From Proteiniphilum sp. UBA5267 (lineage in GTDB: Bacteria; Bacteroidota; Bacteroidia; Bacteroidales; Dysgonomonadaceae): a stretch of DNA of 34,433 nt. Each line of letters opens with the position of its first letter. The first letter of the stretch is position 1. Under the pieces are notes generated by a model that had not been told where the DNA came from, ran no database searches, and worked only from the letters and a program-made list of their open reading frames with translations. Shown here piece by piece: positions 7,429 through 30,927 of this stretch. The stretch is from contig DHTF01000020.1 of assembly GCA_002411515.1 (NCBI GenBank), forward strand, positions 1 through 34,433. Direction: 5' to 3'. The translations under genes were made by a program, and so were the position numbers.

Positions 7429-7442
7429 ATTAATTCTTGTTT

Positions 7443-9113: not shown

Positions 9114-9176
9114 AAGCTAACGCAGGACACAGGCGCAGCTTTCGTCTAACAAGGGTGAAAATTAATCTCTCATTAC

Positions 9177-10049: not shown

Positions 10050-10052
10050 ATA

Positions 10053-10085: not shown

Positions 10086-10139
10086 GTTTGGTTAAATAGC
10101 AACACGACTTTTAACCGGTATATTTTTCTTCATGCGCTC

Positions 10140-12473: not shown

Positions 12474-12497
12474 ATTTATTGTTTATTTGTGAATAAC

Positions 12498-13259: not shown

Positions 13260-13277
13260 ACAGGGTTCATCCGTATT

Positions 13278-13856: not shown

Positions 13857-13900
13857 GTCTTTTGTATTTAAACGCTTTGGGTATCAAAAGTACTTCCTTG

Positions 13901-13908
13901 CAAATATA
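13901..13908 (-). promoter_or_regulatory. -7 box for the DUF4126-cutC-GH20 operon
   Basis: The minus strand reads TATATTTG, matching TAnnTTTG, 45 bases upstream of the DUF4126 ATG. No clear -33 box is present. Confidence 0.45.
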
Positions 13909-13957
13909 GCCTATTTTTTCAGAACGCCTGCACAGGGAAAAAATAACCGGCTGCTTT

Positions 13958-13989
13958 TTTGTTATTTCTGCGAAATAGTTGTATTCTTG
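13958..13989 (+). promoter_or_regulatory. Promoter of the GH5 gene
   Basis: TTTG at 13958-13961, a 20-base spacer and TATTCTTG at 13982-13989 (one mismatch to TAnnTTTG). The ATG at 14077 lies about 88 bases downstream of the -7 box. Confidence 0.5.
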
Positions 13990-14076
13990 TAGTCGCTGCT
14001 GCACATGCTTACAGGGTCTTTACCTTTTTGAAGGCAACACCATAAATTGAGGGAAAATAATCTAAAACCGAACAAA

Positions 14077-15642
14077 ATGCGTCATACGTCAGTTCTGCTC
14101 ATCCTTTTCTTCCTGCTCCTGCACTGTAGCAGTACGCCACCTGTTGAGCCGGAAAAACCGGAGGTACCCGATCATACAGAAGACCCCGAAAAACCGGACG
14201 ATCCCACAGAGCCACAAGACACGGTGAAATGGACAACTGCCCGGGTGATCAATGGTCGCCTGGGGAAAGGAATCAACATAGGAAACACCTTCGAAGCGGA
14301 GCAGTCCTGGCAGTCCCCCTTTGTGGCGGGCGATTTAAAACGCATTGCCGACCTGGGCTTCACGCACGTGCGCATCCCCATTCGCTGGGAGCGTGAAGAT
14401 CGCAGCATGGCTTCATCACCCTACACCATTTATCCCGAATTTTTGAAAACCATTCAGTCGGTGGTCGATGAAGCACTGAAGCAGAAGCTCCACATCATCC
14501 TCAACATGCATCACCACGATGCACTCTTTGCCAATCCGTCCGCCGGGAAAGCTCGCTTTCTTTCGCAGTGGGAGCAGATTGCAGCTCACTTTCAAGCGTA
14601 TCCCGACAGTGTGCTGTTTGAGATCCTCAACGAGCCGCACGATCAGCTCACGCCCACCTTGTGGAACAGTTACGCGAAGGAAGCCCTGCAACACATCAGG
14701 GCGACCAATCCCAAGCGGTGCGTGTTGCTCGGTACCGCCGAGTGGGGCGGGGTAGGCGGATTGCAATCGCTGGAGATCCCCGACGACCCGCAACTGATTC
14801 TGACCATCCACTACTACAACCCCTTTCAGTTCACGCACCAGGGTGCCAGCTGGTCGGAGGGTTCCGAGGCGTGGCTCGGCACAAAGTGGCAGGATACCGA
14901 GCACGAGCGGCAGGCGGTGGCAGACGATTTCAAGGCCTCCATCAGGTTTGCCAACGAGAATAACATCCCGGTGCACGTAGGTGAGTTTGGAGCCTACTCA
15001 CGTGCCGACATCGATTCACGGGTGAAGTGGACCCGCTTTTTGGCGCGCTGGTTTGAACAGCAGCAGTTTAGCTGGGCCTACTGGGAGTGGAACTCCGGCT
15101 TCGGCATTTACGACCCCCGGACCGGACAGTACCAACAGCGGCTGGTGGATGCGCTCATCAAGGATCCAATGCCGGAAGCCTATCAGCCCTCTACTGTTCC
15201 CATCTACAGCAGCAACTTCTCAAACGGACAGGCTGGAGGCTGGTTTATCACCAACAACGATGCCTCAGCGGCGTCGACCCTGCAGATTGCGAACAACAAG
15301 GCGACCATCACCATCACCAAACCGGGGACGGTGGACTGGCATATTCAGTTTATCAAAACAGGCATCCCCATTACAAAGGGTAAGACCTACCTGCTCAGCT
15401 TCAATGCCTCTTCACCCGACAGCAACGACAGAAAAATCAGCATGGGCATTTCCAAAAATGCCGATCCCTGGACCACCTACGGCAACAAATCGGTCACCAT
15501 AGACAAAACCGAAGCAGCCTATAACCTGGTTTTCACCTCAGCCTATACCGATGCCCAGGCAAGAATTGTCTTTTCAGTGGGCAATGCCGGAAATGGCCGC
15601 GTCGTCTTGTCGGATATAAAATTGAGTGAGCTTATTTTTTAA
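14077..15642 (+). CDS. GH5 glycanase (cellulase-type) lipoprotein with C-terminal CBM-like domain
   Basis: A 521-residue secreted glycoside hydrolase of family 5, probably an endo-beta-glucanase or related beta-glycanase. The ATG at 14077 gives a lipoprotein-like signal (MRHTSVLLILFFLLLHC); the longer frame from a TTG at 14047 is not preferred. A Pro/Glu/Asp-rich linker follows. The GH5 barrel contains GINIGNTFEAEQSWQ, HVRIPIRWE, LNMHHHD, the acid/base Glu186 in LNEPH and the nucleophile Glu303 in VGEFGAYSR. The last 140 residues or so form a jelly-roll domain like CBM_4_9 (FSNGQAGGWFITNNDAS to VVLSDIKLSE). It is a single gene with no SusC/SusD neighbours, so the target polysaccharide is unclear. 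Confidence 0.9.
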   Translation: MRHTSVLLILFFLLLHCSSTPPVEPEKPEVPDHTEDPEKPDDPTEPQDTVKWTTARVINGRLGKGINIGNTFEAEQSWQSPFVAGDLKRIADLGFTHVRIPIRWEREDRSMASSPYTIYPEFLKTIQSVVDEALKQKLHIILNMHHHDALFANPSAGKARFLSQWEQIAAHFQAYPDSVLFEILNEPHDQLTPTLWNSYAKEALQHIRATNPKRCVLLGTAEWGGVGGLQSLEIPDDPQLILTIHYYNPFQFTHQGASWSEGSEAWLGTKWQDTEHERQAVADDFKASIRFANENNIPVHVGEFGAYSRADIDSRVKWTRFLARWFEQQQFSWAYWEWNSGFGIYDPRTGQYQQRLVDALIKDPMPEAYQPSTVPIYSSNFSNGQAGGWFITNNDASAASTLQIANNKATITITKPGTVDWHIQFIKTGIPITKGKTYLLSFNASSPDSNDRKISMGISKNADPWTTYGNKSVTIDKTEAAYNLVFTSAYTDAQARIVFSVGNAGNGRVVLSDIKLSELIF

Positions 15643-15867
15643 CACCGCAGCAAGCTTCCAGAAAATGTTGAAACCAGGGCTGCTCATACTTTGTTATAAG
15701 CCCAAAGATAATCCGTATCATTCGCTTATCTGATCCAGATTAATTTGGAGTTTATTCGAACTATATTCGAAGCATATTAGGAGAAGATACGGAGAATCAC
15801 CAGACAAAACCCGGGACGATACAAGATTTTTATTTTTTATTACACCCTATAAACCCACATAATTTTC

Positions 15868-15875
15868 TATTTTTG
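15868..15875 (+). promoter_or_regulatory. -7 box for the macro-like protein
   Basis: TATTTTTG matches TAnnTTTG, 41 bases before the ATG at 15917. The GTG at 15875 that would lengthen the frame overlaps this box. The rest of the 232-base gap 15643-15874 holds no gene that I can see. Confidence 0.45.
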
Positions 15876-15916
15876 TGGGGATCAGAAAAATTGACGATGG
15901 CATAACAAAAAAACAG

Positions 15917-16324
15917 ATGATGATGAAAGATTCAGTCGAACGACCCGCATTTACACCCGAGCATATCACCGTTTTAGCGGCAGATGAGATTTTTGTGTTT
16001 GGCAGCAACCTGGGCGGAAATCATGGTGGTGGCGCTGCCTTGGTCGCATGGAAAAAGTTTGGCGCTATCTACGGGCAGGGTGTCGGCCTGCAGGGACAGA
16101 GCTACGGCATTCCCACCATGCATGGAGGTGTGGAGGCCATTGCGCCCTTTGTCGATGAATTCATTAAATTTGCAGAAGCACACCCCGAGTACTTCTTCTA
16201 TGTCACACGCATTGGATGCGGCATTGCCGGATTTACCGACCGGGAGATTGCTCCTCTTTTTAAAAATGCCTTGAATCTAAAGAACGTTTGTCTGCCAGAA
16301 ACGTTTGTTAAACTTCTGGGGTAA
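15917..16324 (+). CDS. Small macro-domain-like conserved protein
   Basis: A 135-residue cytosolic protein starting at one of three tandem ATGs (15917, 15920, 15923). The core has IFVFGSNLGGNHGGGAA, FGAIYGQGVGLQGQSYGIPT and VTRIGCGIAGF. These resemble the Gly-rich ADP-ribose-binding loops of macro domains. The same family is known from bacteria and from phages (named as a phage non-structural protein, A1S_2505 type). Its function is not established; binding or processing of ADP-ribose or another nucleotide is an inference. It stands alone between the GH5 and dienelactone hydrolase genes. Confidence 0.75.
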   Translation: MMMKDSVERPAFTPEHITVLAADEIFVFGSNLGGNHGGGAALVAWKKFGAIYGQGVGLQGQSYGIPTMHGGVEAIAPFVDEFIKFAEAHPEYFFYVTRIGCGIAGFTDREIAPLFKNALNLKNVCLPETFVKLLG

Positions 16325-16440
16325 TTAAACTTCGGACTGTCTCAATAAATTATTGTCTTGATTGTGCTGCATGCTGTCCTCAAGCCAACAAAAACGCGTT
16401 GTGCGTTGTTTATAGTTGAAACAGTTTAAAAATCACGAAA

Positions 16441-17184
16441 ATGAAAGGATTCATCATTGCATGCCTGCTTATGGGTATTTTCCAAACAATACAGCCACAA
16501 TCACTGAAAACGGTTTCTTATCAGGATGGAACCCAGAAATTAAACGGACTGGTCACTTCCAATGCCGGCAAGCAGTTGCCCGGAGTACTTATCCTGCCTG
16601 CCTGGAAAGGCGCGGACAGTGAAGCGCGTACTGCTGCGCTGAATCTTGAGAAAGAGGGTTACATCGCTTTTATTGCCGATATCTATGGCGAAGGAAACAC
16701 ACCGGCAGACAATACAGCGGCTGCGAAACTGTCGAGTTCCTACAAAAATGATCATCAGGCTTATCAGCACAGGATTTCATTGGCTTTGGAGCAACTGAAA
16801 GCCCAGGGTTCGAAGGCAGATAAAATTGCGGTGATCGGATACTGTTTTGGCGGTACCGGCGCCCTCGAAGCCGCAAGGGCAGGGTTCGACGTGCAGGGAG
16901 TGGTTTCTATTCACGGCGGGTTGGCGAAAGATGAAAAACGGCCCAACAATCCCATTCGTGCGAAAGTGCTTGTGGAACATCCGGCAGAAGACAAAAGCGT
17001 GTCGCTGGAGGACCTCCATAACCTGGCGAAGGAATTGAATGAGGGCAATGCCGATTGGCAAATCATCACCTATGCCCACACCGGCCACACTTTCACAAAC
17101 CCCGAGTCGCCCGAATACAACGAAGTGATGGCAAAGAGAGCCTGGAACCACACACTGTTGTTTCTGGAAGAGCTGTTGAAATAA
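16441..17184 (+). CDS. Dienelactone hydrolase family protein, secreted
   Basis: A 247-residue alpha/beta hydrolase of the dienelactone hydrolase family. It has an N-terminal signal peptide (MKGFIIACLLMGIFQTIQPQS), so it is probably periplasmic. The nucleophile Cys135 is in GYCFGGTGALE and the catalytic His216 in HTGHTFTNPES; the acid residue should lie in the KVLVEHPAEDKSVS region. Family members hydrolyse lactones and esters. Despite the name, no catechol pathway is nearby, so the true substrate is unknown. The ATG at 16441 gives a clean signal peptide. Confidence 0.88.
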   Translation: MKGFIIACLLMGIFQTIQPQSLKTVSYQDGTQKLNGLVTSNAGKQLPGVLILPAWKGADSEARTAALNLEKEGYIAFIADIYGEGNTPADNTAAAKLSSSYKNDHQAYQHRISLALEQLKAQGSKADKIAVIGYCFGGTGALEAARAGFDVQGVVSIHGGLAKDEKRPNNPIRAKVLVEHPAEDKSVSLEDLHNLAKELNEGNADWQIITYAHTGHTFTNPESPEYNEVMAKRAWNHTLLFLEELLK

Positions 17185-17301
17185 GTGCACTTCGTTTCAT
17201 TGTCCGGGGAAATTGATTAAATTTGCCGGGACAATTCAATTTTCCGGGAATCGGTTTTCCCGGGAATTACACCATTATCGTAAATTATTTGTCTTTTTAT
17301 T

Positions 17302-17880
17302 TTGAATTACCTCGCCCATATATATTTTTCGGACAGCTGTCGTCAGGTTGCCGTTGGCAATTTCATTGGAGATTTTGTCAAAGGCCGTGGATACAAATCG
17401 TATCCTTCGGGTATCAGAAAAGGAATCCTTTTGCACAGAGAAATCGATCATTTTACCGACAACCACCCGGTATTTCAGGAGACCGTGGCGCTGCTCCGGC
17501 CCTCTTTTGGTCGCTATTCGGGTATCATGGCCGACATGTATTATGATTATCTGCTTGCCTCAGATTTTGAGCGGTACAGCAATGGGCGGAGCCTCAATCA
17601 ATTTGCCCGCAACTTCTACCTGTCTGTTTTATTTTACTACTGGTGGCTGCCCGAAAGAGTTAAAGGATTCATTTTTCATTTCATCGGAACCAACCGGCTA
17701 AAGAAATACGATACCTTTGCCGGGCTGCAGCAATCGCTCGAAATCATGTCTGTTCATAAGAGCTCCGCAATCAATCCCACCCTCGCAATTGAGTTCCTTG
17801 CAGCCAATGAACCACAGCTGAGAAACCATTTCGGCCGATTCATGGCGGAGGCACAGCAAAGATTTCCCCATCGAAGGTAA
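17302..17880 (+). CDS. acpH: Acyl carrier protein phosphodiesterase (AcpH-type)
   Basis: A 192-residue protein of the AcpH family (DUF479, HD-like fold). AcpH removes the 4'-phosphopantetheine arm from acyl carrier protein. The protein begins MNYLAHIYFSDSC and has VGNFIGDFVKG, LHREIDHFTDNHPVF and ADMYYDYLLA, the family's metal-site and conserved segments. The start is a TTG (17302-17304) giving the usual NYLAH beginning; no in-frame ATG lies close upstream. It is the last core-like gene before the AT-rich island. Confidence 0.88.
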   Translation: MNYLAHIYFSDSCRQVAVGNFIGDFVKGRGYKSYPSGIRKGILLHREIDHFTDNHPVFQETVALLRPSFGRYSGIMADMYYDYLLASDFERYSNGRSLNQFARNFYLSVLFYYWWLPERVKGFIFHFIGTNRLKKYDTFAGLQQSLEIMSVHKSSAINPTLAIEFLAANEPQLRNHFGRFMAEAQQRFPHRR

Positions 17881-18134
17881 TTGGCTGAAAGGTTTGCTGG
17901 TGAATCAGCCTTATACCATATAACGCTATCTGGTGAAGATACAGTAAATGCAGTTCATGTTAAAATTCAGGCTGGAAAGTTGTGAATATAATTATAATTT
18001 TTGATACATTTGAAGTAGTCGTAGGATAATTAGCAGACTTTGAATTGAATAAAAGACTTCGGTGTGAGAAAAGGTATACAGGATAAAGTTCTTTTATACA
18101 CTTGGCTTTTCATACTTTCAAATAACTCTGTAAC
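17881..18134. other. AT-rich gap at the left edge of the island
   Basis: No intact gene is seen. A promoter-like pair, TTG (17980-17982), a 22-base spacer and TACATTTG (18005-18012), points right, but no open frame follows it. The composition changes from the core genes on the left to AT-rich DNA here. Confidence 0.5.
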
Positions 18135-18332
18135 CTATTTGCATAGATAGGATTCGTTTGAAAATAAACAAATCTTCTTTTTCTTTTCTACACATTTAAA
18201 GGTCCTACAAAAGTATTGGGGATCATTTTTATATTTACAACAATAAATATTTATCTCTACGAAAAGGATAGAGATGGCACGAATAAAATCCAGAACTTTG
18301 GCTAAGCCCTGAAGGTCATCTTCTTGTTGCAT
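18135..18332 (-). pseudogene. Remnant of a MobC/TraG-type coupling protein gene (YWFCY domain)
   Basis: From an ATG at 18332 the minus strand reads MQQEDDLQGLAKVLDF, then IRAISILFVEINIYCC. I recognise this as the start of the YWFCY domain at the N-terminus of Bacteroidales conjugative-element coupling proteins (MobC/TraG type). Here the usual YWFCY residues have become IYCCKY. Similarity fades after about 35 codons, and the frame stops at 66 codons, where the intact protein has several hundred residues. So this is the broken front end of a mobilisation gene, left by a conjugative or mobilisable element. Confidence 0.6.
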
Positions 18333-18595
18333 AATATTCGCATTTAAATGTATGAGAAGCAAATTTATGTCATAGGATAATACAATTTACTGATTTGCAA
18401 TTTTATGGTGATTTGTGGCTCCGTTATGGGTAGTTTGTGTCGCTTTTCAAGTCTTGCTAAAGTTTTTTTTCTCATTATATCTCACAGAGGCAAAAATTAT
18501 CAAGTTTTCTATGACTTCTCAAAAAATAGTGATATCTTTGACTGTAATATAATATATAGTCATATGTATTGCAGAATACATCAATTTTGGCAGAA
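18333..18595. other. Intergenic DNA upstream of the XRE gene
   Basis: No gene that I can support lies here. It separates the broken mobilisation gene (leftward) from the XRE-AAA-protease operon (rightward) and holds the promoter element at 18533-18540. Confidence 0.4.
18533..18540 (+). promoter_or_regulatory. -7 box for the XRE-AAA-protease operon
   Basis: TATCTTTG matches TAnnTTTG and lies 55 bases before the ATG at 18596. No good -33 TTG is seen at normal spacing, which would fit a weak or controlled promoter. Confidence 0.5.
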
Positions 18596-18799
18596 ATGGG
18601 TATTCCAATTAATAGGATAAAAGTAGTTCTCGCAGAGAACAAAAAAACTAATCGATGGCTAGCAGAGTCTTTAGGTAAAAATGAAGCAACAGTATCTCGG
18701 TGGTGTACTAATGAAACACAACCATCCATTGAGATGTTTTTTCAAATAGCTAAATTACTAGATGTTGATATTCGAGAACTATTTAATAGAACAAAATAA
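18596..18799 (+). CDS. Small XRE-family DNA-binding regulator
   Basis: A 67-residue helix-turn-helix protein of the XRE/Cro type. It reads MGIPINRIKVVLAENKKTNR, and the recognition part is LAESLGKNEATVSRWCTNET, followed by IEMFFQIAKLLDVDIRELF, the standard end of the domain. No other domain is present. The ATG at 18596 is preferred over a TTG at 18569. The AAA+ gene begins two bases after its stop, so the two are surely co-transcribed. The protein probably binds its own promoter and sets expression of the ATPase and protease, as seen in many toxin-antitoxin and defence operons (inference). Confidence 0.85.
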   Translation: MGIPINRIKVVLAENKKTNRWLAESLGKNEATVSRWCTNETQPSIEMFFQIAKLLDVDIRELFNRTK

Positions 18800-18801
18800 G
18801 T

Positions 18802-19806
18802 ATGGCAAGGGCTGATTTGTTAGTTGATTTAGTAAAACATGCAATCACGGGAAATAAAACCATGATTAAAAAAGTTACGGAAGCTATTATTGCTGAAGAA
18901 AGAAGTAAACAGCATACAATTTTAGCAGACAAGTTAGAGAATGAACTTAACAAAGCATCTTCGGCTGAAAGTAGTCAAAATACTAATGTGTTCTTTAATA
19001 ATAGCAAATCATCGATTGATTTTCGGGCTGAAAATTTAATTACAGAAATTAGTCCCACTAAAAAGCTAACTGATCTTGTATTGCCAACAGATGTGGTTAA
19101 TATATCGGAGCAATTTGTTAAAGAGCAATATCGGGTTGATTTGTTGCGTTCATATGCATTAGAACCTAGAAATAAAATTTTATTAATTGGGCCTCCGGGG
19201 AACGGAAAAACGTCATTGGCTGAGGCTTTAACTGAATCCTTGATGTTGCCTCTTTATGTTGTGAAGTATGATAGTCTAATTGGAGCATATCTTGGAGAAA
19301 CAGCTTCTCGCCTAAGAAAGTTAATGGATTATGCTAGTACTAGGAAATGTGTTTTGTTTTTTGATGAATTTGAAACATTGGGGAAAGAACGAGGTGATAC
19401 CCATGAAACAGGAGAGATTAAGCGCGTGGTAAGTTCCTTATTATTGCAAATAGATAATTTGCCCAGTCATGTAATCGTTATCGGAGCGACTAATCATCCA
19501 GAACTGTTGGACAGGGCTGTTTGGCGACGATTTCAAATAAAGATGACGTTACCTACCCCCACAAGAGTAAATATGATAGCATGGTTAGATAAGTTTCAAC
19601 ATAAACATAAAGTTCGATTTGAATATGCATCTGAAACCATCGCAAAAAAAATGATGGGAACTAATTATGCAGAATTAGAGGAATTTGGTTTGTCTGTTTT
19701 ACGTCAATATGTATTGAACCTGCCAGATTCCAATATGAAAGAAATAGTGAGTGCTGAATTAAAAAACAGAGCCAGCATAGTTGTTGATTCAGAGCTTCAA
19801 AAATAA
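18802..19806 (+). CDS. AAA+ ATPase paired with a subtilisin-like protease
   Basis: A 334-residue AAA family ATPase. The N-terminal 85 residues or so are helical and charged. The AAA module follows with Walker A GPPGNGKTS (G130-S138), Walker B VLFFDEFE (D188-E189), the sensor-1-like GATNHPELLDRA and Arg residues in WRRFQ (R242-R243). A short lid region ends the protein. The FtsH/Cdc48-like core suggests a hexameric remodelling ATPase. It lies 2 bases after the XRE gene and 5 before the subtilase gene, so the ATPase probably works on or with the protease: unfolding or delivering substrates, or holding the protease inactive (inference). AT-rich composition marks it as transferred DNA. Confidence 0.88.
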   Translation: MARADLLVDLVKHAITGNKTMIKKVTEAIIAEERSKQHTILADKLENELNKASSAESSQNTNVFFNNSKSSIDFRAENLITEISPTKKLTDLVLPTDVVNISEQFVKEQYRVDLLRSYALEPRNKILLIGPPGNGKTSLAEALTESLMLPLYVVKYDSLIGAYLGETASRLRKLMDYASTRKCVLFFDEFETLGKERGDTHETGEIKRVVSSLLLQIDNLPSHVIVIGATNHPELLDRAVWRRFQIKMTLPTPTRVNMIAWLDKFQHKHKVRFEYASETIAKKMMGTNYAELEEFGLSVLRQYVLNLPDSNMKEIVSAELKNRASIVVDSELQK

Positions 19807-19811
19807 AAATT

Positions 19812-22370
19812 ATGGCAGATTACCCATTGTTATTTTTCCCCGAACCACAAGGACTAGATAGAGTTGGAAAATCTTTTCCTCCGCGCAAAATTCATTATCC
19901 TTCTTCCGAAAGGCAAACAGAAAGATTGTCACCACTATTTGACACCTTGAGAAGTGCTTTTGATGCAAGAAGAATGGAAATACAACAAACCCCGGAAGGT
20001 ATTGATCCGGAACAAGTAATTGTTTTTGAAACAATAGGAACAGTTGATGATTTTGTAACTGCCATTAGGCACACAGAAGGATTGGAATGGATGGGAGAAA
20101 TAGAACTTGATGATTTGCAGCCAACTGAAGATTTCTATTTCGAAAAGGCAGAGGACAGAGAGAAATCCTTATCTGGCAGATTATTTTTGACTATGACCAA
20201 TCAAAGGGCTCTTAATGAAATGCTTTCGTTATGGCGGCAATATTCCGATAATCCTGATACACAATTTATGAGAGGATTAGCTGGATTCAAATCATTATTT
20301 CTGAAATTAAAAAACATTCGTCGTTGGGATGTTAAGGATAGACTGTTAGAAACAGGCGTACTTGATTTTTGGCAACAACAAATTGAGAGGGAAGAACCAA
20401 TAATTAGATTTGAATTACAATTATGGTATAGCAGTTCTGAAGCAAAACGTCAACAGTCTCATCGTTCTATCATTAGTCTTATCGAATCTTTAGGGGGACA
20501 ACATATTATCACTTCAGTAATACAAGAAATAGCATACCATGCTCTTTTAGTTGAATTGCCAGCAAATGAAATACAAAATATTATCGATAATCCCAATACT
20601 CAGTTAGTAAGGTGGGACGATATCATGTTTTTTAGGCCATCTGGACAGATTGCAATAAAAGTAGACTATGAAGAAAATGAGGCGCTTGAAATAGACAGAA
20701 GATTTGAATCACAACCAACTGGAGAGCCTGTTGCAGCTTTGCTTGATGGCATGCCTATGGAAAACCATCATTTACTTGCTAATAGATTGATGGTAGATGA
20801 TCCCGATAACTATGGAGAGAACTATGAGGCACAGTGTAGGCTTCATGGTACAGGAATGAGTTCCCTTATTATTCATGGAGATTTAAATGATAATAATCTC
20901 CCAATTACTACACCTTTATATGTTCGTCCAATAATGAAGTTAAAGATGTGGCTGGACGATAGAATAGAGCGTGTCCCTGACAATGAGCTATTTGTTGACT
21001 TGTTACACCGTGCTGTAAAAAGGATTTTTGAGGGAGATGCTGATAGTAGTCCTATAAAATCTATTAAAATTATAAATTTGTCAATAGGCGATAGTTCTTT
21101 GTTGTTTTATCACACGATGAGTCCTGTGGCAAGATTGCTTGATTTTCTCAGCCTTAAATATGATGTTTTATTCATAATTAGTGCAGGTAATCATCTCCAT
21201 AGATTGGAACTTTCGACTTTATATAAAGACTTCAAACTATTAAATGATTGTGATAAAGAAAAGTTGATTTATCAAAAAGTCGTTGGGGATATGAGAAATA
21301 GAAGATTATTATCTCCTTCTGAAAGTATTAACAATATAACCATAGGCTCTATCCATTATGACAATGCGGTATTAAGAGAGTATGATCGAAGAATAAATCC
21401 TTCTTCCAGATTATTACCCAATGTTCATTCAGCGTTTGGGGGTGGATATCGCAAAGCAATTAAACCTGACATGGTTTTTAATGGTGGTCGCCAATTTTTC
21501 AATGAGGCTTTTTTAGAAAATAATCCAACTCCATTAGTTTTTTCGTGCAATAGAATAGAACCGGGTCAACTTGTAGCAGCCCCTTCTTCTGAACGAGATA
21601 AAACAATCTTTACACGTGGTACAAGTAATGCTACCGCCCTAATAACCAGAGGTGCGATTAAAATATCAGAAACGCTAAAAAACATCTTTCAAAATGATTA
21701 TAACTCTCAGCTATATAGCCAATATATCCCTCTTTTGATAAAAGTTATGCTAGCTCATGGATGTAGTTGGGGCGAAATCGAAACTAATTTATATGAAGTA
21801 TTAGGAGACAGATATTCAAATATTGATTTAAAAGAAATAATTACAAGATGGATAGGATATGGCTTTCCAGATATAGATAAAGTAACAGAATGTACAGCCC
21901 AAAGAGTTACAATTCTTGGTTTTGGAAAACTAGAGGTTGATAAAATTCATTTATTTCGACTACCTCTTCCTCCCTCATTGTCTGCAAGACCAGAAAATAG
22001 GAAACTTACTATAACTTTAGGTTGGTTTAGTCCTATTGCGTCTAACACACAAAGATATAGAGTTGGAAGCCTTTTCTTTGAAGCGCAAAATGATTTATTG
22101 GGTGTCAAACGAGATGATGCAGACTATCATTCAGTTAGAAGAGGCACATTGCAACATGAAGTGTTTGTGGGAGAGAAAGCCATTCCATTTGAAGACGAGA
22201 GCAGTTTAGGAATCCAAGTAATATGCAAAAAGGATGCAGGTGATTTTTTGGGATTAATACCGTATGCTTTAGCTGTTACCTTAGAAGTTGCAGATGAAAT
22301 TGGTCTCCCGATTTATCAAGAAGTGAGAAATAGATTGATTACACCGATTATAGTAGATCAGTACATTTAG
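19812..22370 (+). CDS. Large cytosolic subtilisin-like (S8) protease
   Basis: An 852-residue peptidase of family S8. The triad reads as Asp312 in VAALLDGMP, His345 in RLHGTGMSS and Ser605 in RGTSNATA, with oxyanion Asn460 in IISAGNH. The order Asp-His-Asn-Ser is that of subtilases. About 300 residues precede the catalytic domain and about 220 follow Ser605; neither part resembles a family I recognise. There is no signal peptide or membrane segment and no obvious propeptide, so the enzyme should act inside the cell. It is last in the XRE-AAA-S8 operon. AAA/subtilase gene pairs recur in bacterial accessory islands, and a role in phage defence or regulated self-killing is plausible but not shown. 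Confidence 0.88.
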   Translation: MADYPLLFFPEPQGLDRVGKSFPPRKIHYPSSERQTERLSPLFDTLRSAFDARRMEIQQTPEGIDPEQVIVFETIGTVDDFVTAIRHTEGLEWMGEIELDDLQPTEDFYFEKAEDREKSLSGRLFLTMTNQRALNEMLSLWRQYSDNPDTQFMRGLAGFKSLFLKLKNIRRWDVKDRLLETGVLDFWQQQIEREEPIIRFELQLWYSSSEAKRQQSHRSIISLIESLGGQHIITSVIQEIAYHALLVELPANEIQNIIDNPNTQLVRWDDIMFFRPSGQIAIKVDYEENEALEIDRRFESQPTGEPVAALLDGMPMENHHLLANRLMVDDPDNYGENYEAQCRLHGTGMSSLIIHGDLNDNNLPITTPLYVRPIMKLKMWLDDRIERVPDNELFVDLLHRAVKRIFEGDADSSPIKSIKIINLSIGDSSLLFYHTMSPVARLLDFLSLKYDVLFIISAGNHLHRLELSTLYKDFKLLNDCDKEKLIYQKVVGDMRNRRLLSPSESINNITIGSIHYDNAVLREYDRRINPSSRLLPNVHSAFGGGYRKAIKPDMVFNGGRQFFNEAFLENNPTPLVFSCNRIEPGQLVAAPSSERDKTIFTRGTSNATALITRGAIKISETLKNIFQNDYNSQLYSQYIPLLIKVMLAHGCSWGEIETNLYEVLGDRYSNIDLKEIITRWIGYGFPDIDKVTECTAQRVTILGFGKLEVDKIHLFRLPLPPSLSARPENRKLTITLGWFSPIASNTQRYRVGSLFFEAQNDLLGVKRDDADYHSVRRGTLQHEVFVGEKAIPFEDESSLGIQVICKKDAGDFLGLIPYALAVTLEVADEIGLPIYQEVRNRLITPIIVDQYI

Positions 22371-22511
22371 ACTAATTTAGTTCAAACTATATTTTCAGAA
22401 AGCTTCCTTTTGTTGACAAAGCAAGCAAAGTATTTCATATTATATTACAGGTTAGAATGATATTAAGTCTGTAAATGAGATTGAAAGTCTTAAATAAAAG
22501 TATATCAATAA

Positions 22512-22688
22512 CGGCTAGATAATCGTTTTGATGAACATATGTTTTGTCTTTGGCTGATGATGGATACCACGGGAAAGGCAATGGTTTATTATAATTGGGA
22601 TTTATGCCCGCGAGATACTTGTGGAATGTTACAGGTGATGACTTTGATTGGAGCAGATTTATACCGTATAAAAAAAGATATCAGATAA
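22512..22688 (+). pseudogene. Unrecognised coding-like fragment
   Basis: A frame open from a stop at 22509-22511 to a TAA at 22686-22688, with an ATG at 22539. It encodes RLDNRFDEHMFCLWLMMD and continues with YYNWDLCPRDTCGMLQ. The residue mix looks like a real protein more than chance, but the piece is short and no family is recognised. It is probably the remains of an accessory gene. Confidence 0.25.
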
Positions 22689-23004
22689 AAATTTTGAACC
22701 TTTAAGATACCATAGAGAGTTATATACCCGCCCATATTACAGAGAATTGTGAGAAGACTTTGTCTCATCCTTACCCCAACATGTTGCTCATAGAAAAAGC
22801 TCAGACAAAGCAATTAAGAAACTATTAATGAGTATTTTAACTTATTGAACAACAGCAAAAAAGAGGTGTTAAATAATATCTTTAATCGTTTTACTAAATT
22901 ATTTAATGGAGCTGGAGAAGTTGCTATAATAACTTTAAAGTAGCGATTAACAATATCTTATGACTCATATCATATTCTTTTTCAGTTTATTTTTTTTGCT
23001 AGTA

Positions 23005-23036
23005 ACATGTACATAAAATTGGTATTTTGTACATGT
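23005..23036. repeat. Inverted repeat before the Fic_N-like fragment
   Basis: ACATGTACA (23005-23013) and TGTACATGT (23028-23036) form 9-base arms, with further partial pairing inward (AAAAT/ATTTT). The repeat ends 9 bases before the ATG at 23046 and spans the place where a promoter -7 element would be, as an operator would. Confidence 0.4.
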
Positions 23037-23045
23037 AGAAAGAAA

Positions 23046-23132
23046 ATGAAAAAGGGAATTAAAATAGCTCTATCACCTCCTGATCAGGATGTTGAAACGA
23101 AATCTATGGTGGAATGTATGAACAGGTCATGA
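23046..23132 (+). pseudogene. Possible remnant of a Fic-family gene start
   Basis: A 28-residue frame starting MKKGIKIALSPPDQDVETKS and stopped by TGA at 23130-23132. The PPxxDVETK pattern resembles the beginning of the Fic N-terminal domain (Fic_N), where a Pro-rich segment precedes a D-x-E-T-K helix start. The helix that should follow (ALAELKG-like) is absent. So this may be the stump of a lost Fic gene; similarity over so short a piece is weak. Confidence 0.3.
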
Positions 23133-23511
23133 GACGGAAATATGACTGAAACAACATCATTATTAATAATTTACAATAAAGTTTGCATATCTACTTTTCA
23201 ATAGTTAACAAGCAAAAATATCTGAATTTCTAAACATGGAAATATCATGACATAAATTGTCAAAATTAACTGTATTTTCGAATACACTATCAACGAGAGT
23301 TCTACCACGACAGCGAACTGTTGAAGTATCCTCGCATGAAGCAGTGAAAAAATCACATCTGCATCATTTTATGCTAATGAAGAGGATGATGTAATTACTG
23401 AATATTTTATATAAATATATCAGTAGATAAAGATGAACGCAACATGGTGTTCAAATAAATATTAACTAACTTCGGGCTCAAATCTGATTATCGATTACAA
23501 ATAAAAAATAA

Positions 23512-25071
23512 ATGACGAAGGAACAGGAGAGAGATGAGTTGCACAGAACCATCTGGAGGATAGCCAATGATCTGCGTGGAAGTGTGGATGGTTGGGATTT
23601 TAAATCGTACGTGCTTGGAATGTTGTTTTACAGGTTTATTTCTGAGAACCTGACAAATTATCTCAACAAGGAGGAGCAACGTGCGGGGAATATTGATTTT
23701 GACTATACGAAAATCACGGATGAAGATGCAGAATATGCAAGGTATGAAACCGTTTTAGAAAAGGGTTTCTTTATCCTTCCTTCGGAACTGTTTGTGAATG
23801 TAAACGGCAAAGCAAAGAGCGACGACAACCTGAACGAAACACTGAGCACAGTTTTCAAGAATATAGAGAATTCGGCCAAAGGTACATCCAGTGAAGACAG
23901 CATGAAGGGCCTCTTTGACGATATCGACGTGAATAGCAACAAGCTGGGGGCCACAGTAAAGAAACGCAACGAACTGCTTGTAAAGATCATGGATTCCATT
24001 GCCGGTTTAGGCTTGGGTGATTACCAGGACAACAACAACGATACTTTTGGTGATGCATATGAATATCTAATGACCATGTATGCGGGAAATGCCGGTAAAT
24101 CGGGTGGGGAATTCTTCACACCTACCGAAGTATCCGATTTGTTGGCAAAAATAGCTGTTGTGGGTAAAAAACAAGTCAACAAAGTATATGATCCTGCCTG
24201 CGGATCCGGATCGCTGTTGTTGAAATTTGCCAAAGTGTTGGGCAAGGGAAATGTACGTCAGGGATTCTTCGGACAGGAGATCAACATCACCACCTACAAC
24301 CTTTGCAGGATCAATATGTTTCTGCATGATATCAATTACGAGAAATTCGATATAGCCCATGGCGACACACTGATGGAGCCCAAACATTGGGATGATGAAC
24401 CTTTCGATGCCATCGTCTCCAATCCCCCTTACTCCACCAAATGGGAAGGAGATGACAACCCAATACTGATAAACGATCCACGTTTTTCGCCCGCAGGAGT
24501 GTTAGCCCCCAAGAGCAAAGCCGATCTTGCTTTTACCATGCATATTCTGAGTTGGTTGTCCACTACCGGAACAGCTGCCATTGTTGAATTTCCTGGAGTG
24601 CTTTACAGAGGCGGTGCAGAACAGAAAATCAGGAAATATCTGATCGACAACAACTATGTAGATGCAGTACTCCAACTGCCGCCCAATATGTTTTTCGGTA
24701 CCAGCATAGCCACCTGTGTGATTGTATTGAAGAAGAGCAAAAAAGAAAACAGAACCCTGTTTATTGATGCTTCGAATGAATTTGTACCAGCAGGCAATAA
24801 AAACAAGTTGGGTGAGGAGAATATCGAAACTATTCTCAACGCCTATATCGAGCGAAAAGATATCAACCATTTTTGTAGCTTAGTGGACAATACTGCGATT
24901 GGCGAAAATGATTATAATCTGTCGGTGAGCAGTTATGTAGAGAGGGAGGATACCCGTGAGGTCATTGATATTGAAAAGTTAAATGCTGAAATAGCTGAAA
25001 TAGTAGAACGGCAGACGATATTGAGAAACGAGGTCGATGTAATTGTGGCAGAATTGGAGGGTGCTGAATAA
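23512..25071 (+). CDS. hsdM: Type I restriction-modification DNA methyltransferase subunit
   Basis: HsdM adds a methyl group to adenine N6 at the site chosen by HsdS, and also forms the core of the restriction complex. The 519-residue length matches type IC (EcoR124-like) HsdM. The N-terminal domain contains NDLRGSVDGWDFKSYVLGML. The SAM-binding motif DPACGSGSLL starts at D227, preceded by GKSGGEFFTPTEVSDLL, and the catalytic NPPY is at N304-Y307. A C-terminal helical region follows. It is first in the operon hsdM-hsdS-fic-hsdR. The GC content is higher than in the gap before it and in hsdS after it. Confidence 0.96.
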   Translation: MTKEQERDELHRTIWRIANDLRGSVDGWDFKSYVLGMLFYRFISENLTNYLNKEEQRAGNIDFDYTKITDEDAEYARYETVLEKGFFILPSELFVNVNGKAKSDDNLNETLSTVFKNIENSAKGTSSEDSMKGLFDDIDVNSNKLGATVKKRNELLVKIMDSIAGLGLGDYQDNNNDTFGDAYEYLMTMYAGNAGKSGGEFFTPTEVSDLLAKIAVVGKKQVNKVYDPACGSGSLLLKFAKVLGKGNVRQGFFGQEINITTYNLCRINMFLHDINYEKFDIAHGDTLMEPKHWDDEPFDAIVSNPPYSTKWEGDDNPILINDPRFSPAGVLAPKSKADLAFTMHILSWLSTTGTAAIVEFPGVLYRGGAEQKIRKYLIDNNYVDAVLQLPPNMFFGTSIATCVIVLKKSKKENRTLFIDASNEFVPAGNKNKLGEENIETILNAYIERKDINHFCSLVDNTAIGENDYNLSVSSYVEREDTREVIDIEKLNAEIAEIVERQTILRNEVDVIVAELEGAE

Positions 25072-25287
25072 TAAAATCCAACTGTTCGGAATAACCGAAG
25101 AGCTCGGTGGTTATTTAGAAATTTCGAAATATAAGTATAGCAGTTAGAATATTTAGAAAATAAATGAATTTTGGTGAAGTGATCTGCTATTAATTCTGAT
25201 CATTTTCGTGACCTCACGAAAATGGTCGAACAAGGCATTAGGATTAGGCTTGAAAACATTTCACTAATCTACCAAAGAAACTATTAA
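25072..25287. other. Gap between hsdM and hsdS with a perfect inverted repeat
   Basis: This 216-base AT-rich gap is unusual because hsdM and hsdS normally touch or overlap. It contains the inverted repeat at 25201-25224 and a 28-codon GTG frame (25061-25147) that overlaps the hsdM stop and reads VLNNKIQLFGITEELGGYLE. No gene can be supported. Confidence 0.5.
25201..25224. repeat. Inverted repeat in the hsdM-hsdS gap
   Basis: CATTTTCGTGA (25201-25211) and TCACGAAAATG (25214-25224) are perfect 11-base arms around CC. Pairing extends three more bases outward with one mismatch. No T-run follows on either strand, so a simple terminator is unlikely. It may be a regulator or recombinase site, or an RNA hairpin tuning hsdS expression. 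Confidence 0.55.
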
Positions 25288-26460
25288 ATGAATAGAATAG
25301 AAAAACTGATACAAGAATATTGTCTAAATGTAGTGGACTTTATGGAGTTGGGGATGATATTAGATTATGAACAGCCGACGAAATATATAGTTGAAAGTGC
25401 TCAATATAATGATGATTATGAAACCCCTGTTTTGACAGCAGGACAATCATTCATTTTAGGATATACTGATGAGAATGATGGCATTTACCAAGCAAATAAG
25501 CTTAATCCTGTAATTATATTTGATGATTTTACTACTTCTTTTCATTGGGTTGATTTTAATTTTAAAGTTAAATCTTCAGCTATGAAGATGATTAAACCTA
25601 AAAATAATAATGAGGCCATTTTTAAATATGTTTATTATGCAATGAATTGTATAAATTATAAGCCTCAAGACCATGCTCGTCAATGGATTTCAGTCTACTC
25701 AACATTTAGGATACCTGTTCCTCCACTTCCAGTTCAACAAGAAATTGTAAATATTCTTGACAAATTCAATCAGTTGGAGGATGAATTGAATGCTGAACTT
25801 GAGGCAAGACGCAAACAGTATGATTTTTATCTTAACCAATTGATGGGTTTTAAAGATAGTGAAGTTGAGTGGAAAACCTTAGGTGAGGTTGGTGAATTTG
25901 TTAGAGGGAAAAGATTTGTGAAAAATGATATTACCAAAGAAGGAATTCCCTGTATTCATTATGGTGAGTTATACACTCATTATGGAATATGGACAAATTC
26001 AGCTAAATCATATTTAGAGCCAAACTTAGCAGAAAGATTAAGAGTTGCAAATCCTGGTGATGTTATAATTGTAAGTACAGGAGAAACAATTGAGGATATA
26101 GGTAATGCTGTAGCATGGTTAGGTGACACTGAGATAGTAATACACGATGCTTGTTTTGCTTTTTCTCATAAACAGAATCCAAAATATGTTTCTTATTTTC
26201 TGAGAACAAATCATTTTCGTTCACAAATTAGGAAATACATATCTTCAGGAAAAATATCCTCAATCAATGACTCGGGACTAAGTAAAGCAAAGATACCTGT
26301 ACCATCATTAGAAGAACAGGAGCGCATCGTTTCAATTTTGGACAAATTTGATGCATTGGTCAATGATTCCAAGATCAGTATTCAAGCTGAGATTGAAGCA
26401 AGGCGCAAACAATATGAGTATTACAGGAATAAATTATTAACTTTCGAAGAATATGCATAA
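25288..26460 (+). CDS. hsdS: Type I restriction-modification specificity subunit
   Basis: HsdS recognises the two halves of the target site. The 390-residue protein has the normal two-fold layout. The first target-recognition domain covers about residues 1-140. The central conserved helix region runs from [18 protein letters not shown] to [13 protein letters not shown]. The second recognition domain starts near [16 protein letters not shown], and the C-terminal conserved region runs [18 protein letters not shown] to [13 protein letters not shown]. The two ARRKQY segments are encoded by near-identical DNA (25801-25823 and 26395-26417, 20 of 23 bases). The gene is more AT-rich than hsdM and hsdR, as expected if recognition domains are exchanged. 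It overlaps the fic gene by 8 bases. Confidence 0.95.
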
Positions 26461-27325
26461 AGTTTCTGTCCGCTTTTTCAATGATCGTGAAGTACGTGCC
26501 GTGTGGGATGAGGAAAATGCCAAATGGTGGTTCTCCGTCCTGGATGTCGTGGCAGTTCTTACCGATCAGGATGACTATGCGAAAACACGAAACTATTGGA
26601 AATACCTGAAAACGAAACTCAAAAAAGAAAAAAGTGAAGTGGTTAGTGCCACTAACCAGTTTAAAATTCTCGCACCCGATGGTAAAAGAAGGTTGACCGA
26701 CATGCTGGATTCGGATGGAGTGATCGCTTTGGGCAAAGAATTCCCGGGCAAACAGGCTAACCGTTTTATTGAGTGGTTTACCTTCAGTGATGAGTCCATC
26801 GACGGCAAAAGTAAACTAAAGGCATACGCGTTGTTTGACAGTTCTCTGATCGATAGCATTGAAGTGGGTACGACCAACGGATTGCAGCAGATTCATGCGT
26901 ATCTGTTCGGTGGTTTGTATGACTTTGCCGGCCAGATTCGGCAGAAGAATATTTCGAAAGGAGGATTTCAGTTTGCCGTCGCTCATTTTTTAGGGAACAC
27001 CTTAAAGCAAATTGAACAGATGCCGGGAAGCACTTTCGAGGAAATTGTCGATAAATATGTCGAGATGAATATCGCGCATCCTTTTATGGAAGGCAATGGT
27101 CGAAGTATGCGAATCTGGTTGGACCTGATCTTGAAGAAGCGGATGAAAAAATGTGTGGATTGGAGCAGGATTGGTAAAAAAGAATACCTGAGCGCAATGG
27201 TACAAAGTCCGGTCGATAGTGCTGCAATCAGGACGCTACTCCATAACGCGCTTACGGATGATATCCACAGTCATGAAATGTATATGAAAGGGATTGATTA
27301 CTCCTATTACTATGAAGAAGATTAA
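26453..27325 (+). CDS. BRO-N-like / Fic-domain fusion protein in the hsd operon
   Basis: A 290-residue protein with two parts. The N-terminal 110 residues or so ([20 protein letters not shown], then [12 protein letters not shown], and later [14 protein letters not shown]) resemble the BRO-N/antirepressor-type domain common in phage and accessory proteins. The C-terminal part is a Fic domain with the complete motif [12 protein letters not shown] (H209-R220). His209 is the expected base, and Glu213 takes the acidic metal-ligand place, so AMP transfer to a protein target seems possible. The gene overlaps hsdS by 8 bases and ends 12 before hsdR, so it is made with the restriction enzyme. It could modify or control HsdR, or act as a back-up toxin (inference). 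I see no clear inhibitory (S/T)xxxE(G/N) motif. Confidence 0.85.
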
Positions 27326-27337
27326 AATGAGATAAAG

Positions 27338-30300
27338 ATGAATCAGTTTAATGTGGTTGCCGAAAATCCTGAATCAACGGTTGTTGCTGAGTATAAGTCG
27401 CCTTACAAACGGGCAACGGCTTACCAGTCGGAGGCAGATCTGGAAAAGATGCTGATTGAACAATTGCAGAAGCAGGCATATGATTATCTGCCTATAAGGA
27501 GTGAAAGGGATCTGATTGTCAATTTGCGTATTCAGTTGGAGAGGCTGAATGATTTTGTGTTTAGTGACAACGAATGGGACTTCTTTTTCAGGAATAAGAT
27601 TGCGAATCAGAACCTGGGTATAGAGGAGAAAACGTATATCATTCAGGAGGATTACATTCAGCTGCTGGCACGTGATGATGGGTCGGTAAAAAATATCTAT
27701 CTGATCGACAAGACAAATATCCACAACAACAGTCTGCAGGTCATCAACCAGTATGAAACTGAAAACGGTACGCACAGCAACAGATATGATGTGACAATTC
27801 TGGTGAACGGTCTGCCCATGGTGCATATTGAGCTGAAAAGAAGGGGCATCGAGTTGAAGGAGGCCTTCAACCAGATTAACCGGTACAACAGGGAGTCGTT
27901 CTGGGCTGACTCGGGATTGTTTGAATATGTACAGCTTTTTGTCATATCAAACGGCACGTTCACAAAATATTACAGCAATACCACCCGGTTTACCCACATT
28001 AAAGAGAAGGCGGAAGGCTCGGTGAAGAAAGGAAAACAGACGAGCAACAGCTACGAGTTTACCTCCTGGTGGGCCGATGCGAATAACATGCCGATCACGG
28101 ATCTAATAGACTTTACCGACACGTTCTTTGCCAAACATGCGATATTGAATCTGCTAACCAGGTATTGCATATTTACATCGGAGAAGCTATTGCTTGTGAT
28201 GCGCCCTTACCAGATTGTGGCGACGGAACGGATCCTGGGACGGATTCATGTGGCTTATAATGCAAAGACCATTGGTACTATAAATGCAGGTGGTTATATA
28301 TGGCATACCACCGGGAGCGGGAAAACATTGACTTCGTTCAAGACGGCTCAGATTGCCAGCAAGTTGCCCTATATCAACAAGGTGTTGTTCGTGGTGGACC
28401 GGAAGGACCTCGATTATCAGACTATGAAGGAGTATGATAAGTTTGAGAAGGGAGCCGCAAACAGCAACAAGAGTACAGCCGTTTTGAAAAAGCAGATCGA
28501 GGATCCCAACGCAAGAATCATCATTACCACCATTCAGAAGCTATCGATCTTTGTTGAGAAGAACAAGAAACATCCTTCATTCAATCAGCATTTTGTGATC
28601 ATCTTCGACGAGTGTCACCGCTCCCAGTTTGGGGAGATGCATACGGCAATCAAGAAGAATTTCAAAAAGTTCTATATTTTTGGATTTACGGGTACTCCAA
28701 TTTTTGCAGTGAACGCAAGCAGTGCAGGCAGGGTTGATCTGAAAACCACCGAACAGGCTTTTGGGGAGAAGTTGCATACCTACACCATCGTGGATGCCAT
28801 TACGGATAAGAATGTGCTGCCTTTCCGTATCGATTATATCAGTACGATGAAAGAAGAGGAGAACATCAGGGATGAAAAGGTGTGGAACATCGACAGGGAA
28901 AGGGCTTTGGCTTCGTCCGATCGGATTGGGAACATCGTTTCCTACATCATTGAACATTTCGACCAGAAAACAAAACGCAATTCTTTTTATAAACTGAAAG
29001 ACCGGCGTCTGTCGGGCTTCAACTCCATTTTTGCGGTCGCATCCATTGATGTTGCCAAAAAGTATTATGCTGAGTTTAAAAAACAATTGCAGGATAAGCC
29101 GGGCGATAAAAAGCTGAAGGTGGCTCTTATTTACAGCTATGCTGCGAATGAGGATGAAGTGGAGACGGATGGTATCCTGGGCGATGAGAACTCGGATGAC
29201 ACGAGCGGTCTGGACAAGAGTTCGCGTGATTTTCTGGAAGCGGCCATTCAGGACTACAACGGGATGTTTAATATGAATTTTGACACATCTGCTGATAAGT
29301 TTCAAGGTTATTATAAGGATGTTTCAGAAAAGGTGAAAAAGAGGGAGCTGGATCTGCTCATTGTGGTAAACATGTTCCTTACGGGTTTCGATGCTACCAC
29401 ACTGAATACGCTTTGGGTGGATAAGAATCTGAGGTTACACGGACTTTTGCAGGCTTATTCGCGCACGAACCGCATCCTGAATTCGGTGAAGACATTCGGT
29501 AATATCGTCTGCTTCCGGAATCTGGAGGATGCTACCAACGAGAGCATAGCCCTGTTTGGCGACAAGGAGGCGGGGGGAGTGGTGCTGCTGAAGACTTTCG
29601 ATGAGTATTATAACGGTTATACCGACGGAAAGAAGAACATTGCCGGGTATGCTGAACTGGTGTATACCTTGCTGGAGAAATATCCCATTGATGAATCAAT
29701 CGTGGGTGAACAGAACAAGAGAGAGTTTATCAAGTTGTATGGTGCCATTCTGAAGGTGAGAAATATCCTTTCTTCGTTTGACGAGTTCAAAGGAAGAGGC
29801 ATTTTGACTGAACGCGATGTGCAGGATTACCACAGCGCTTATATCGATCTGTACCGGGAGTTCAGAGAACTGGGTAAACGAGACTCTGAAAATATCAATG
29901 ACGACATCGTTTTTGAGATGGAGCTCATCAAGCAGGTTGAGATTAACATCGACTATATCTTGATGCTGATTAAGAAATATCATGAGGATCATGTGAAAAA
30001 CAGAGAGGTTAAGATTGATATTTACAAGGCAATTGATTCGAGCGTGGAATTGAGAAATAAGAAAGATCTGATTCAGACGTTTATTGAATCGTTGACGCCA
30101 ACGACTGAGGTGGACGACGACTGGAAGAAATTCGTGGACGAGAAAAAGATGGAGGAGCTTGATCGTATTATCGTGGAGGAGAACCTGAACCGGGAGGCAA
30201 CTTATAATTTTGTGGACAATGCATTCCGGGATGGTTATGTGCAAACCACCGGCACGGCTCTGGCAAAAGTGTTGCCGCCCATGTCGAGATTCTCCGCCAA

Positions 30301-30403
30301 AAGTGAACGACCTAAAAAAAGGGAAAATGTACTGGTGAAGATAAACGAGTTTTTCAATAAGTTTTGGGATATTTCCGGAGGAAAATTATTTAATAACGGG
30401 TGA
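27338..30403 (+). CDS. hsdR: Type I restriction enzyme motor/nuclease subunit
   Basis: HsdR moves DNA and cuts it when the HsdS site is unmethylated. The 1021-residue length fits the type IC EcoR124 group. The N-terminal PD-(D/E)xK nuclease shows D151 in NRYDVTIL and E165-K167 in HIELKRRG. The helicase domains show Walker A HTTGSGKT (H323-T330), the DECH box at D424-H427 in FDECHRSQFG, GFTGTPIF, and motif VI-like QAYSRTNRI. A helical C-terminal part contacts HsdM. It is last in the operon, 12 bases after the fic gene. No frameshift or stop interrupts it, so the system looks intact. Confidence 0.96.
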   Translation: MNQFNVVAENPESTVVAEYKSPYKRATAYQSEADLEKMLIEQLQKQAYDYLPIRSERDLIVNLRIQLERLNDFVFSDNEWDFFFRNKIANQNLGIEEKTYIIQEDYIQLLARDDGSVKNIYLIDKTNIHNNSLQVINQYETENGTHSNRYDVTILVNGLPMVHIELKRRGIELKEAFNQINRYNRESFWADSGLFEYVQLFVISNGTFTKYYSNTTRFTHIKEKAEGSVKKGKQTSNSYEFTSWWADANNMPITDLIDFTDTFFAKHAILNLLTRYCIFTSEKLLLVMRPYQIVATERILGRIHVAYNAKTIGTINAGGYIWHTTGSGKTLTSFKTAQIASKLPYINKVLFVVDRKDLDYQTMKEYDKFEKGAANSNKSTAVLKKQIEDPNARIIITTIQKLSIFVEKNKKHPSFNQHFVIIFDECHRSQFGEMHTAIKKNFKKFYIFGFTGTPIFAVNASSAGRVDLKTTEQAFGEKLHTYTIVDAITDKNVLPFRIDYISTMKEEENIRDEKVWNIDRERALASSDRIGNIVSYIIEHFDQKTKRNSFYKLKDRRLSGFNSIFAVASIDVAKKYYAEFKKQLQDKPGDKKLKVALIYSYAANEDEVETDGILGDENSDDTSGLDKSSRDFLEAAIQDYNGMFNMNFDTSADKFQGYYKDVSEKVKKRELDLLIVVNMFLTGFDATTLNTLWVDKNLRLHGLLQAYSRTNRILNSVKTFGNIVCFRNLEDATNESIALFGDKEAGGVVLLKTFDEYYNGYTDGKKNIAGYAELVYTLLEKYPIDESIVGEQNKREFIKLYGAILKVRNILSSFDEFKGRGILTERDVQDYHSAYIDLYREFRELGKRDSENINDDIVFEMELIKQVEINIDYILMLIKKYHEDHVKNREVKIDIYKAIDSSVELRNKKDLIQTFIESLTPTTEVDDDWKKFVDEKKMEELDRIIVEENLNREATYNFVDNAFRDGYVQTTGTALAKVLPPMSRFSAKSERPKKRENVLVKINEFFNKFWDISGGKLFNNG

Positions 30404-30879: not shown

Positions 30880-30927
30880 CTCATATTTACTTTTTTGGAT
30901 ATCTTGACAATGGCATAATTGAATACC

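Follow-up and report, generated by a model that had tools for sequence, protein, structure and literature searches.

A divergent IetAS pair behind a small XRE gene of a defence-linked Bacteroidales family in Proteiniphilum sp. UBA5267

IetAS is an already known module of an AAA-ATPase and a subtilase, described both as a toxin-antitoxin pair and as an antiphage module. Its founding study in Agrobacterium, going by the title, reportedly concerned a role in plasmid stability and incompatibility. In E. coli, the SGI1 subtilase S025/SgiT was toxic and the ATPase S026/SgiA neutralised it, while this SgiAT pair gave no post-segregational killing from its own promoter (PMC5006074). In the mycoplasma pair TA132/3, an ATPase antitoxin likewise neutralised a subtilase toxin (PMC8562856). 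Here we analysed a three-gene operon, at positions 18596 to 22370 of a 34,433-nt stretch (the window) of contig DHTF01000020.1 from Proteiniphilum sp. UBA5267, which an initial annotation had described as a candidate poorly described system of an XRE regulator, an AAA+ ATPase and a cytosolic subtilase, without a settled mechanism. This last statement holds because the mechanism of IetAS was still called unknown in 2025 in the accessible part of PMC11878078.

The results showed that, judged by sequence, the ATPase-protease pair is IetAS in the broad sense, on a divergent branch. We consider it quite probable that the operon as a whole is a divergent IetAS module, suicidal mechanism included, whose regulator belongs to a family common to many Bacteroidales defence systems. 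The sequences themselves give the family membership, the gene order, the intact active sites, the wide link between the XRE family and defence genes, and breakpoints located where XRE gives way to the defence gene or close to that point.

The IetA-IetS pair and its relatives

The operon lies on the forward strand and comprises a gene for an XRE (HTH_3) regulator of 67 aa (18596..18799; an alternative in-frame TTG start at 18569 is possible and would give 76 aa), a gene for IetA, an AAA+ ATPase of 334 aa and the proposed antitoxin or control subunit (18802..19806), and a gene for IetS, an S8 subtilase of 852 aa and the proposed protease toxin (19812..22370). The gaps are 2 bases between the XRE and ATPase genes and 5 bases between the ATPase and protease genes, so the tight packing of the initial annotation was reproduced. 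Both proteins were named by PADLOC: IetA, which also matches Pfam AAA, was recognised by PDLC04232 (E 2.4e-146, residues 1-327 of 334), and IetS by PDLC04233 (1040 bits, residues 1-846 of 852), with an additional match to Peptidase_S8 (47.6 bits). The idea of an undescribed system was therefore dropped, while the reading as a defence module stood: an AAA+ protein and a subtilase that both look active, a regulator of their own and, plausibly, a suicidal mode of action. In NCBIfam, IteA was the best family for the ATPase (225 bits against an equivalog cut-off of 510) and IteS the sole family matching the protease (56.3 bits against a cut-off of 900).

The active sites appeared complete, as had been noted. 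IetA carries a Walker A motif GPPGNGKT at residues 130-137, including Lys136, a Walker B motif VLFFDE and a sensor 1 motif GATN, and in IetS the residues Asp312, His345, Asn460 and Ser605 were each invariant in 29/29 aligned relatives. By sequence, the nearest solved chains to IetA are the AAA domains of p97/Cdc48; models of proteasome-activating ATPases matched it too, at scores below cut-off. A search of the IetS profile against PDB sequences gave no match at E 1; the predicted structure, with a middling mean pLDDT of 71.5, matches ordinary subtilases, and residues 1-190 in it have no assignment. A beta-alpha-beta-beta-alpha-beta domain at residues 197-278 (20400..20645, forward strand), possibly an I9-type inhibitory propeptide, stands directly before the catalytic domain, which together with a strand-rich C-terminal part occupies residues 304-826 (20721..22289, forward strand). 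No hydrophobic stretch was found at the N-terminus of IetS, which fits a cytosolic protein and agrees with the intracellular protease first proposed. On this ground, and because of the gene pairing with IetA, a secreted or housekeeping subtilase was dropped.

A protein search with IetS gave 2209 relatives at E ≤ 0.001 among 7996 candidates. In the genome collection, an earlier scan of genome contigs with IetS alone confirmed no relative; an alignment scan gave 326 pattern matches, 304 of them encoding a relative, and 80 loci were kept. IetA lay directly upstream of IetS in 77 of the 80; the contig starts at ietS in two of the remaining loci, and a partial IetA lies at the contig edge in the third. 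We take the pairing to be beyond chance because two full-length family matches coincide with an order kept in these relatives. According to the record titles, the loci belong to Bacteroidota, Proteobacteria, Firmicutes, Planctomycetes, Acidobacteria, Lentisphaerae and others. A plasmid DNA search for ietAS returned 14 records, and the 10 matches listed cover 5-6% of the query, in an ATP-binding protein. One weak match was obtained with IetS among phages, and 3 loci with IetA among viral contigs; in one of these, L211, the sequence of the XRE region is that of the Bacteroides neonati locus L009.

The window thus shares with the IetAS/IteAS systems (IetA-IetS of pTiC58 and SgiAT of SGI1) the gene order, an AAA+ ATPase immediately followed by an S8 subtilase, but its pair is divergent and has an XRE gene in front, which was not found at 77 of the 80 related loci; in at least six of these the sequence stops at ietA or close to it, where an XRE gene would escape notice. 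TA132/3, compared with the window by description only, has an ATPase antitoxin and a subtilase toxin of 353 and 757 aa in one operon, but belongs to another phylum, and the accessible text mentions no XRE gene (PMC8562856).

The XRE family, its promoter and the genes behind it

The XRE protein matched Pfam HTH_3 in its 76-aa form (38.9 bits), and a Pfam scan of the protein (67-76 aa) gave only HTH matches and no WYL domain. Its relatives with solved structures, PDB 3bs3 (E 3.3e-23) and 3omt (E 4.2e-21), were deposited as 'Putative DNA-binding protein' and 'uncharacterized protein' with no named function; the defence link of the family suggests a role for both. A partial literature search, with subscription papers mostly outside it, found no description of the family by title or abstract, although one may be in print. 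A regulator specific to IetAS was dropped as an explanation, since the XRE gene precedes 3 of the 80 IetAS loci (L009, L045 and L086, all Bacteroidales), but the family occurs at E ≤ 1e-6 in 73 of 295 Bacteroidales genomes, against 3 for IetA; by our tally, 27 of the 73 genomes contain two or more matches. The self-regulation first proposed therefore stood in that the operon has a regulator gene of its own, but not as a regulator family particular to this system.

We took the 52 places with E ≤ 9.3e-17 (a hand tally), dropped two with in-frame stops and examined the remaining 50 XRE members (L089-L118 and L132-L151); without the window and L100, which lies at a contig end, 48 could be scored. 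For comparison we used as controls 39 small HTH_3 genes with an open frame of ≤ 130 aa that fall outside the XRE family; they came from 22 of the same genomes, in order of score, and one candidate beside a broken XRE-family member was skipped. Next genes were tallied by hand, and several are cut at the end of the retrieved locus. The next gene matched a PADLOC defence model (E ≤ 1e-10) in 43/48 XRE members, with L090 counted by its phmmer match to IetA, and in 8/39 controls (Fisher p 3e-11). When weak or ambiguous models were dropped (L095, L102, L117, L136, L142 and L146 among members, L166 and L187 among controls), the counts were 37/48 and 6/39 (Fisher p 8e-9). Sixteen of the 39 controls had no same-strand open reading frame (ORF) of ≥ 80 aa starting within 300 nt and had been counted as negative; with only the controls that have a downstream ORF, the comparison became 43/48 against 8/23 (p 4e-6). 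The next gene also began within 30 nt in 44/49 members, the window included, compared with 11/39 controls.

The genes behind XRE members belong to restriction-modification systems of types I, II, IIG and III, to IetAS, and to models for a HEC-01A ATPase, BrxP, BrxA, a DruE-like protein (Druantia) and SspB; further matches were to Snf2 helicase models, MkoA and PDC candidates. In a small plasmid sample (10 records, 9 inspected, 6 annotated), the next gene encoded an N-6 methylase (L201), a type I restriction subunit (L207), a GIY-YIG nuclease (L202), a protein with an RNA-binding domain, with SNF2 and methylase genes behind it (L203), or a hypothetical protein (L206), and L205 had no same-strand neighbour. 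XRE matches were present in 17 phage records, the listed ones carrying no annotation, and a scan of viral contigs gave 6 distant loci. In genome G386, with five XRE matches, the four examined (L097, L132, L135 and L143) precede four different genes.

In five of the 48 members the next gene matched none of the PADLOC models at E 1e-10. Four of these genes, L148:695-2737 (+), L105:1692-3176 (+), L139:3193-4509 (-) and L097:1704-2873 (+), also lacked a PDB relative at E 0.01. The fifth, L135:3051-4367 (-), lies 111 nt behind the XRE member; its N-terminal part resembles Rv1873 (2jek) and its C-terminal part ADP-ribosylhydrolases, and we regard it as a candidate new defence gene.

Upstream of the window XRE gene, at 18533..18540 on the forward strand, lies the motif TAnnTTTG (TATCTTTG), which we take to be the Bacteroidota -7 promoter element. 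This motif occurs within 60 nt before the XRE start in 37/53 family members, against a base-shuffle mean of 2.4; the window copy, 63 nt before the ATG at 18596, falls outside this limit and is not among the 37. Its position upstream of XRE indicates that the defence transcript probably begins with XRE. An inverted repeat, TGACT-14 nt-AGTCA (18539..18562), overlaps the -7 element and is a candidate XRE operator, a suggestive reading only. Inverted repeats over the -7 element with arms of ≥ 6 bases were found in 11/43 members (shuffled mean 2.2, 0/300 shuffles as high), and with arms of ≥ 5, the length of the window arms, in 19/43 (shuffled mean 9.7, 1/300 as high).

Comparison by blastn suggested exchange of the promoter and XRE gene, which we read as a portable regulator cassette of ~280 bp. 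L094 and L133 come from genomes of two different families. Their DNA agrees at 90% across the 279 nt that run up to the XRE stop codon and differs from there on, with a HEC-01A ATPase behind XRE in one and a type III methylase in the other; because the contig of L094 measures 13 kb, that locus could be an assembly chimera. Between L103 and L104, whose contigs measure 3.4 Mb and 227 kb, a stretch of 266 nt is 83% identical and stops 11-17 nt short of the end of XRE; the next genes encode an EcoRI-type methylase in one and a type IIG enzyme in the other. For L097 and L138, identity is 86% along 250 nt and breaks off 31-34 nt before XRE ends; an unassigned gene follows in one and a PDC-S41 match in the other. 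In L115 and L132 the similarity lies in the methylase gene, at 81% over 855 nt beginning 2-5 nt behind XRE, and blastn gave no further match at E ≤ 1e-8. The pairs L116/L149, L133/L134 and L141/L144 are similar across both XRE and the next gene, as plain inheritance would give. On an XRE tree limited by few columns (68), we counted 25 changes of system label, where the least possible is 5 and the shuffled mean 30.9 (as low in 1/200), indicating both inheritance and exchange; the IetAS-linked XREs clustered to a degree reached in 3/500 shuffles.

Regulators placed ahead of diverse defence systems have been described before, as controller (C) proteins, BrxR/CapW, CapH/CapP, CapK/CapS and RptR. 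RptR, found mostly with type I restriction (54/117; PMC12255303), resembles the window XRE, by description only, as a small HTH-type repressor gene heading a defence operon, but differs in its 79 aa, its occurrence in Gammaproteobacteria and its site TAGCTA. The 110 nt before the window XRE contain no TAGCTA and one TATATA, which is uninformative in AT-rich DNA. BrxR/CapW is similarly one regulator family near diverse defence systems, 164/347 having such a system within 50 kb downstream, but it is a WYL protein of ~295 aa, mostly from Proteobacteria (PMC9122601), whereas the window XRE has 67 aa and an HTH only. C proteins share the small XRE gene directly upstream, at a gap of 2 bases in the window; there, however, the next gene is IetA and not a type II endonuclease. 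The XRE family also precedes type I/III, IetAS, Druantia-like, Ssp and BREX systems, and we do not class the window XRE as a C protein.

Surroundings of the operon

The AT-rich setting given in the initial annotation was confirmed, with a GC content of 0.353 in 18569-22370 (the operon) against 0.496 in 1-17880, as was the adjoining restriction operon. The latter is of type I, lies outside IetAS at 23512..30403 on the forward strand and encodes HsdM, HsdS, a Fic/Bro-N protein and HsdR; the Fic/Bro-N gene (26453-27325; PADLOC PDC-S04, E 6e-162) lies between HsdS and HsdR. The ~1.1 kb between IetS and HsdM (22371-23511) is AT-rich, and all its open frames are short. Downstream of the restriction operon, 30919-31839 encodes an HTH protein with a WYL match, possibly another defence regulator. 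The broken mobilisation gene claimed beside the operon was not found: the gaps on both sides contain only short open pieces between stops, and one 36-aa piece, the only one searched, gave no match among plasmids at E 0.1. A tRNA search of the window found none.

In the related locus L194 (genome G056), the same two flanking genes, an ACP-phosphodiesterase-like gene and a homologue of the 105-aa gene at 30562, enclose a single 1246-aa gene read as GH2-like, compared with 12.7 kb of IetAS and restriction genes in the window. The region looks acquired because of this single large gene in L194 and because the GC content of 17881-30561 is 0.378, against 0.496 upstream of it. Among the relatives of the genus (L192-L199), the content behind the ACP-phosphodiesterase-like gene is variable, and some loci end too early.

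Proposed mechanism and rival explanations

The mechanism that we infer covers toxicity, neutralisation, trigger, suicide and repression. The cytosolic subtilase IetS would harm its own cell when free, and the p97-like ATPase IetA would hold it in check. Phage takeover would upset IetA, and the freed IetS would cleave cell or phage proteins, so that infection would be stopped at the cost of the cell. XRE would bind the promoter before its own gene and keep the whole transcript at a low set point, a role suggested by its position, the promoter and precedent. The promoter and XRE unit of ~280 bp would have been joined to unrelated defence systems. We tentatively propose, with the balance slightly against it, an exchangeable Bacteroidales cassette of this size, whose paralogues could tie restriction-modification, IetAS and other systems into a cross-talking regulon and which would then flag candidate new defence genes (such as those behind L097, L105, L135, L139 and L148).

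Several results weigh against this picture. Neither protein reaches the NCBIfam equivalog cut-off; both are thus related to IteA and IteS but outside the narrow equivalog, and their function may differ from that of the tested homologues. The failure to find XRE at 77 of the 80 IetAS loci implies that IetAS does not need it in general. IetA itself, at E ≤ 1e-60, occurred in only 3/295 Bacteroidales genomes, and in one of them (G189) the IetA contig had no XRE match. The PADLOC counts include candidate families (PDC, HEC) of predicted function only, no operator common to all XRE members was found, and the partial clustering of XREs by system on the tree implies that the cassette is not freely shuffled.

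Alternatively, IetA could feed substrates to IetS, the two forming a machine akin to the proteasome that would unfold and cut proteins of phages or plasmids while the host survives. The p97/Cdc48 unfoldases as nearest solved relatives of IetA, its sub-cut-off scores against proteasome-activating ATPases and the intact active sites of both proteins would suit such a machine, but the IetS model matches ordinary subtilases and the published homologues, as far as their reports are accessible, act as toxin and antitoxin; we regard this as rather improbable. Only a little less improbable is an addiction module, in which IetAS would mainly stabilise its island by post-segregational killing or plasmid incompatibility, with phage defence secondary. 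The Agrobacterium founder is, by its title, reportedly tied to plasmid stability and incompatibility and SgiAT, likewise by title, to island maintenance, and the region around the operon looks acquired. Against this stand the many phyla spanned by IetAS relatives, a restriction operon as the neighbour here, and the lack of post-segregational killing by SgiAT from its own promoter (PMC5006074).

For the regulator, action as a type II-style controller protein, activating at low and repressing at high dose and so delaying expression in a new cell, is a real though doubtful possibility. Its position resembles that of controller genes, which precede and are co-transcribed with the restriction gene (PMC6237814), and many XRE members do precede restriction-modification genes. 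Few XRE partners, however, resemble type II endonucleases, a search for one inverted repeat per promoter revealed no two-site C-box common to the members, and the inverted repeats overlap the -7 element, which fits repression better than controller action. That the link to defence merely reflects small XRE genes lying in defence-rich islands generally appears very improbable: a PADLOC match also follows 8/39 controls, and in at least three cases it is a type II restriction enzyme, but the contrast with 43/48 members, the closer spacing of the next gene and the breakpoints at or near the XRE/defence junction all argue otherwise.

As a divergent IetAS module under a shared defence regulator, the operon would offer a regulated copy as a further model for a system whose mechanism was called unknown in 2025 (PMC11878078). 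How newly entered defence genes are controlled without killing the cell is, in our judgement, little known outside Proteobacteria. If one cassette is indeed common to many Bacteroidales systems, this question would become directly testable in Bacteroides laboratory strains with a single protein and promoter, and the cassette would serve as a search handle for new defence genes.

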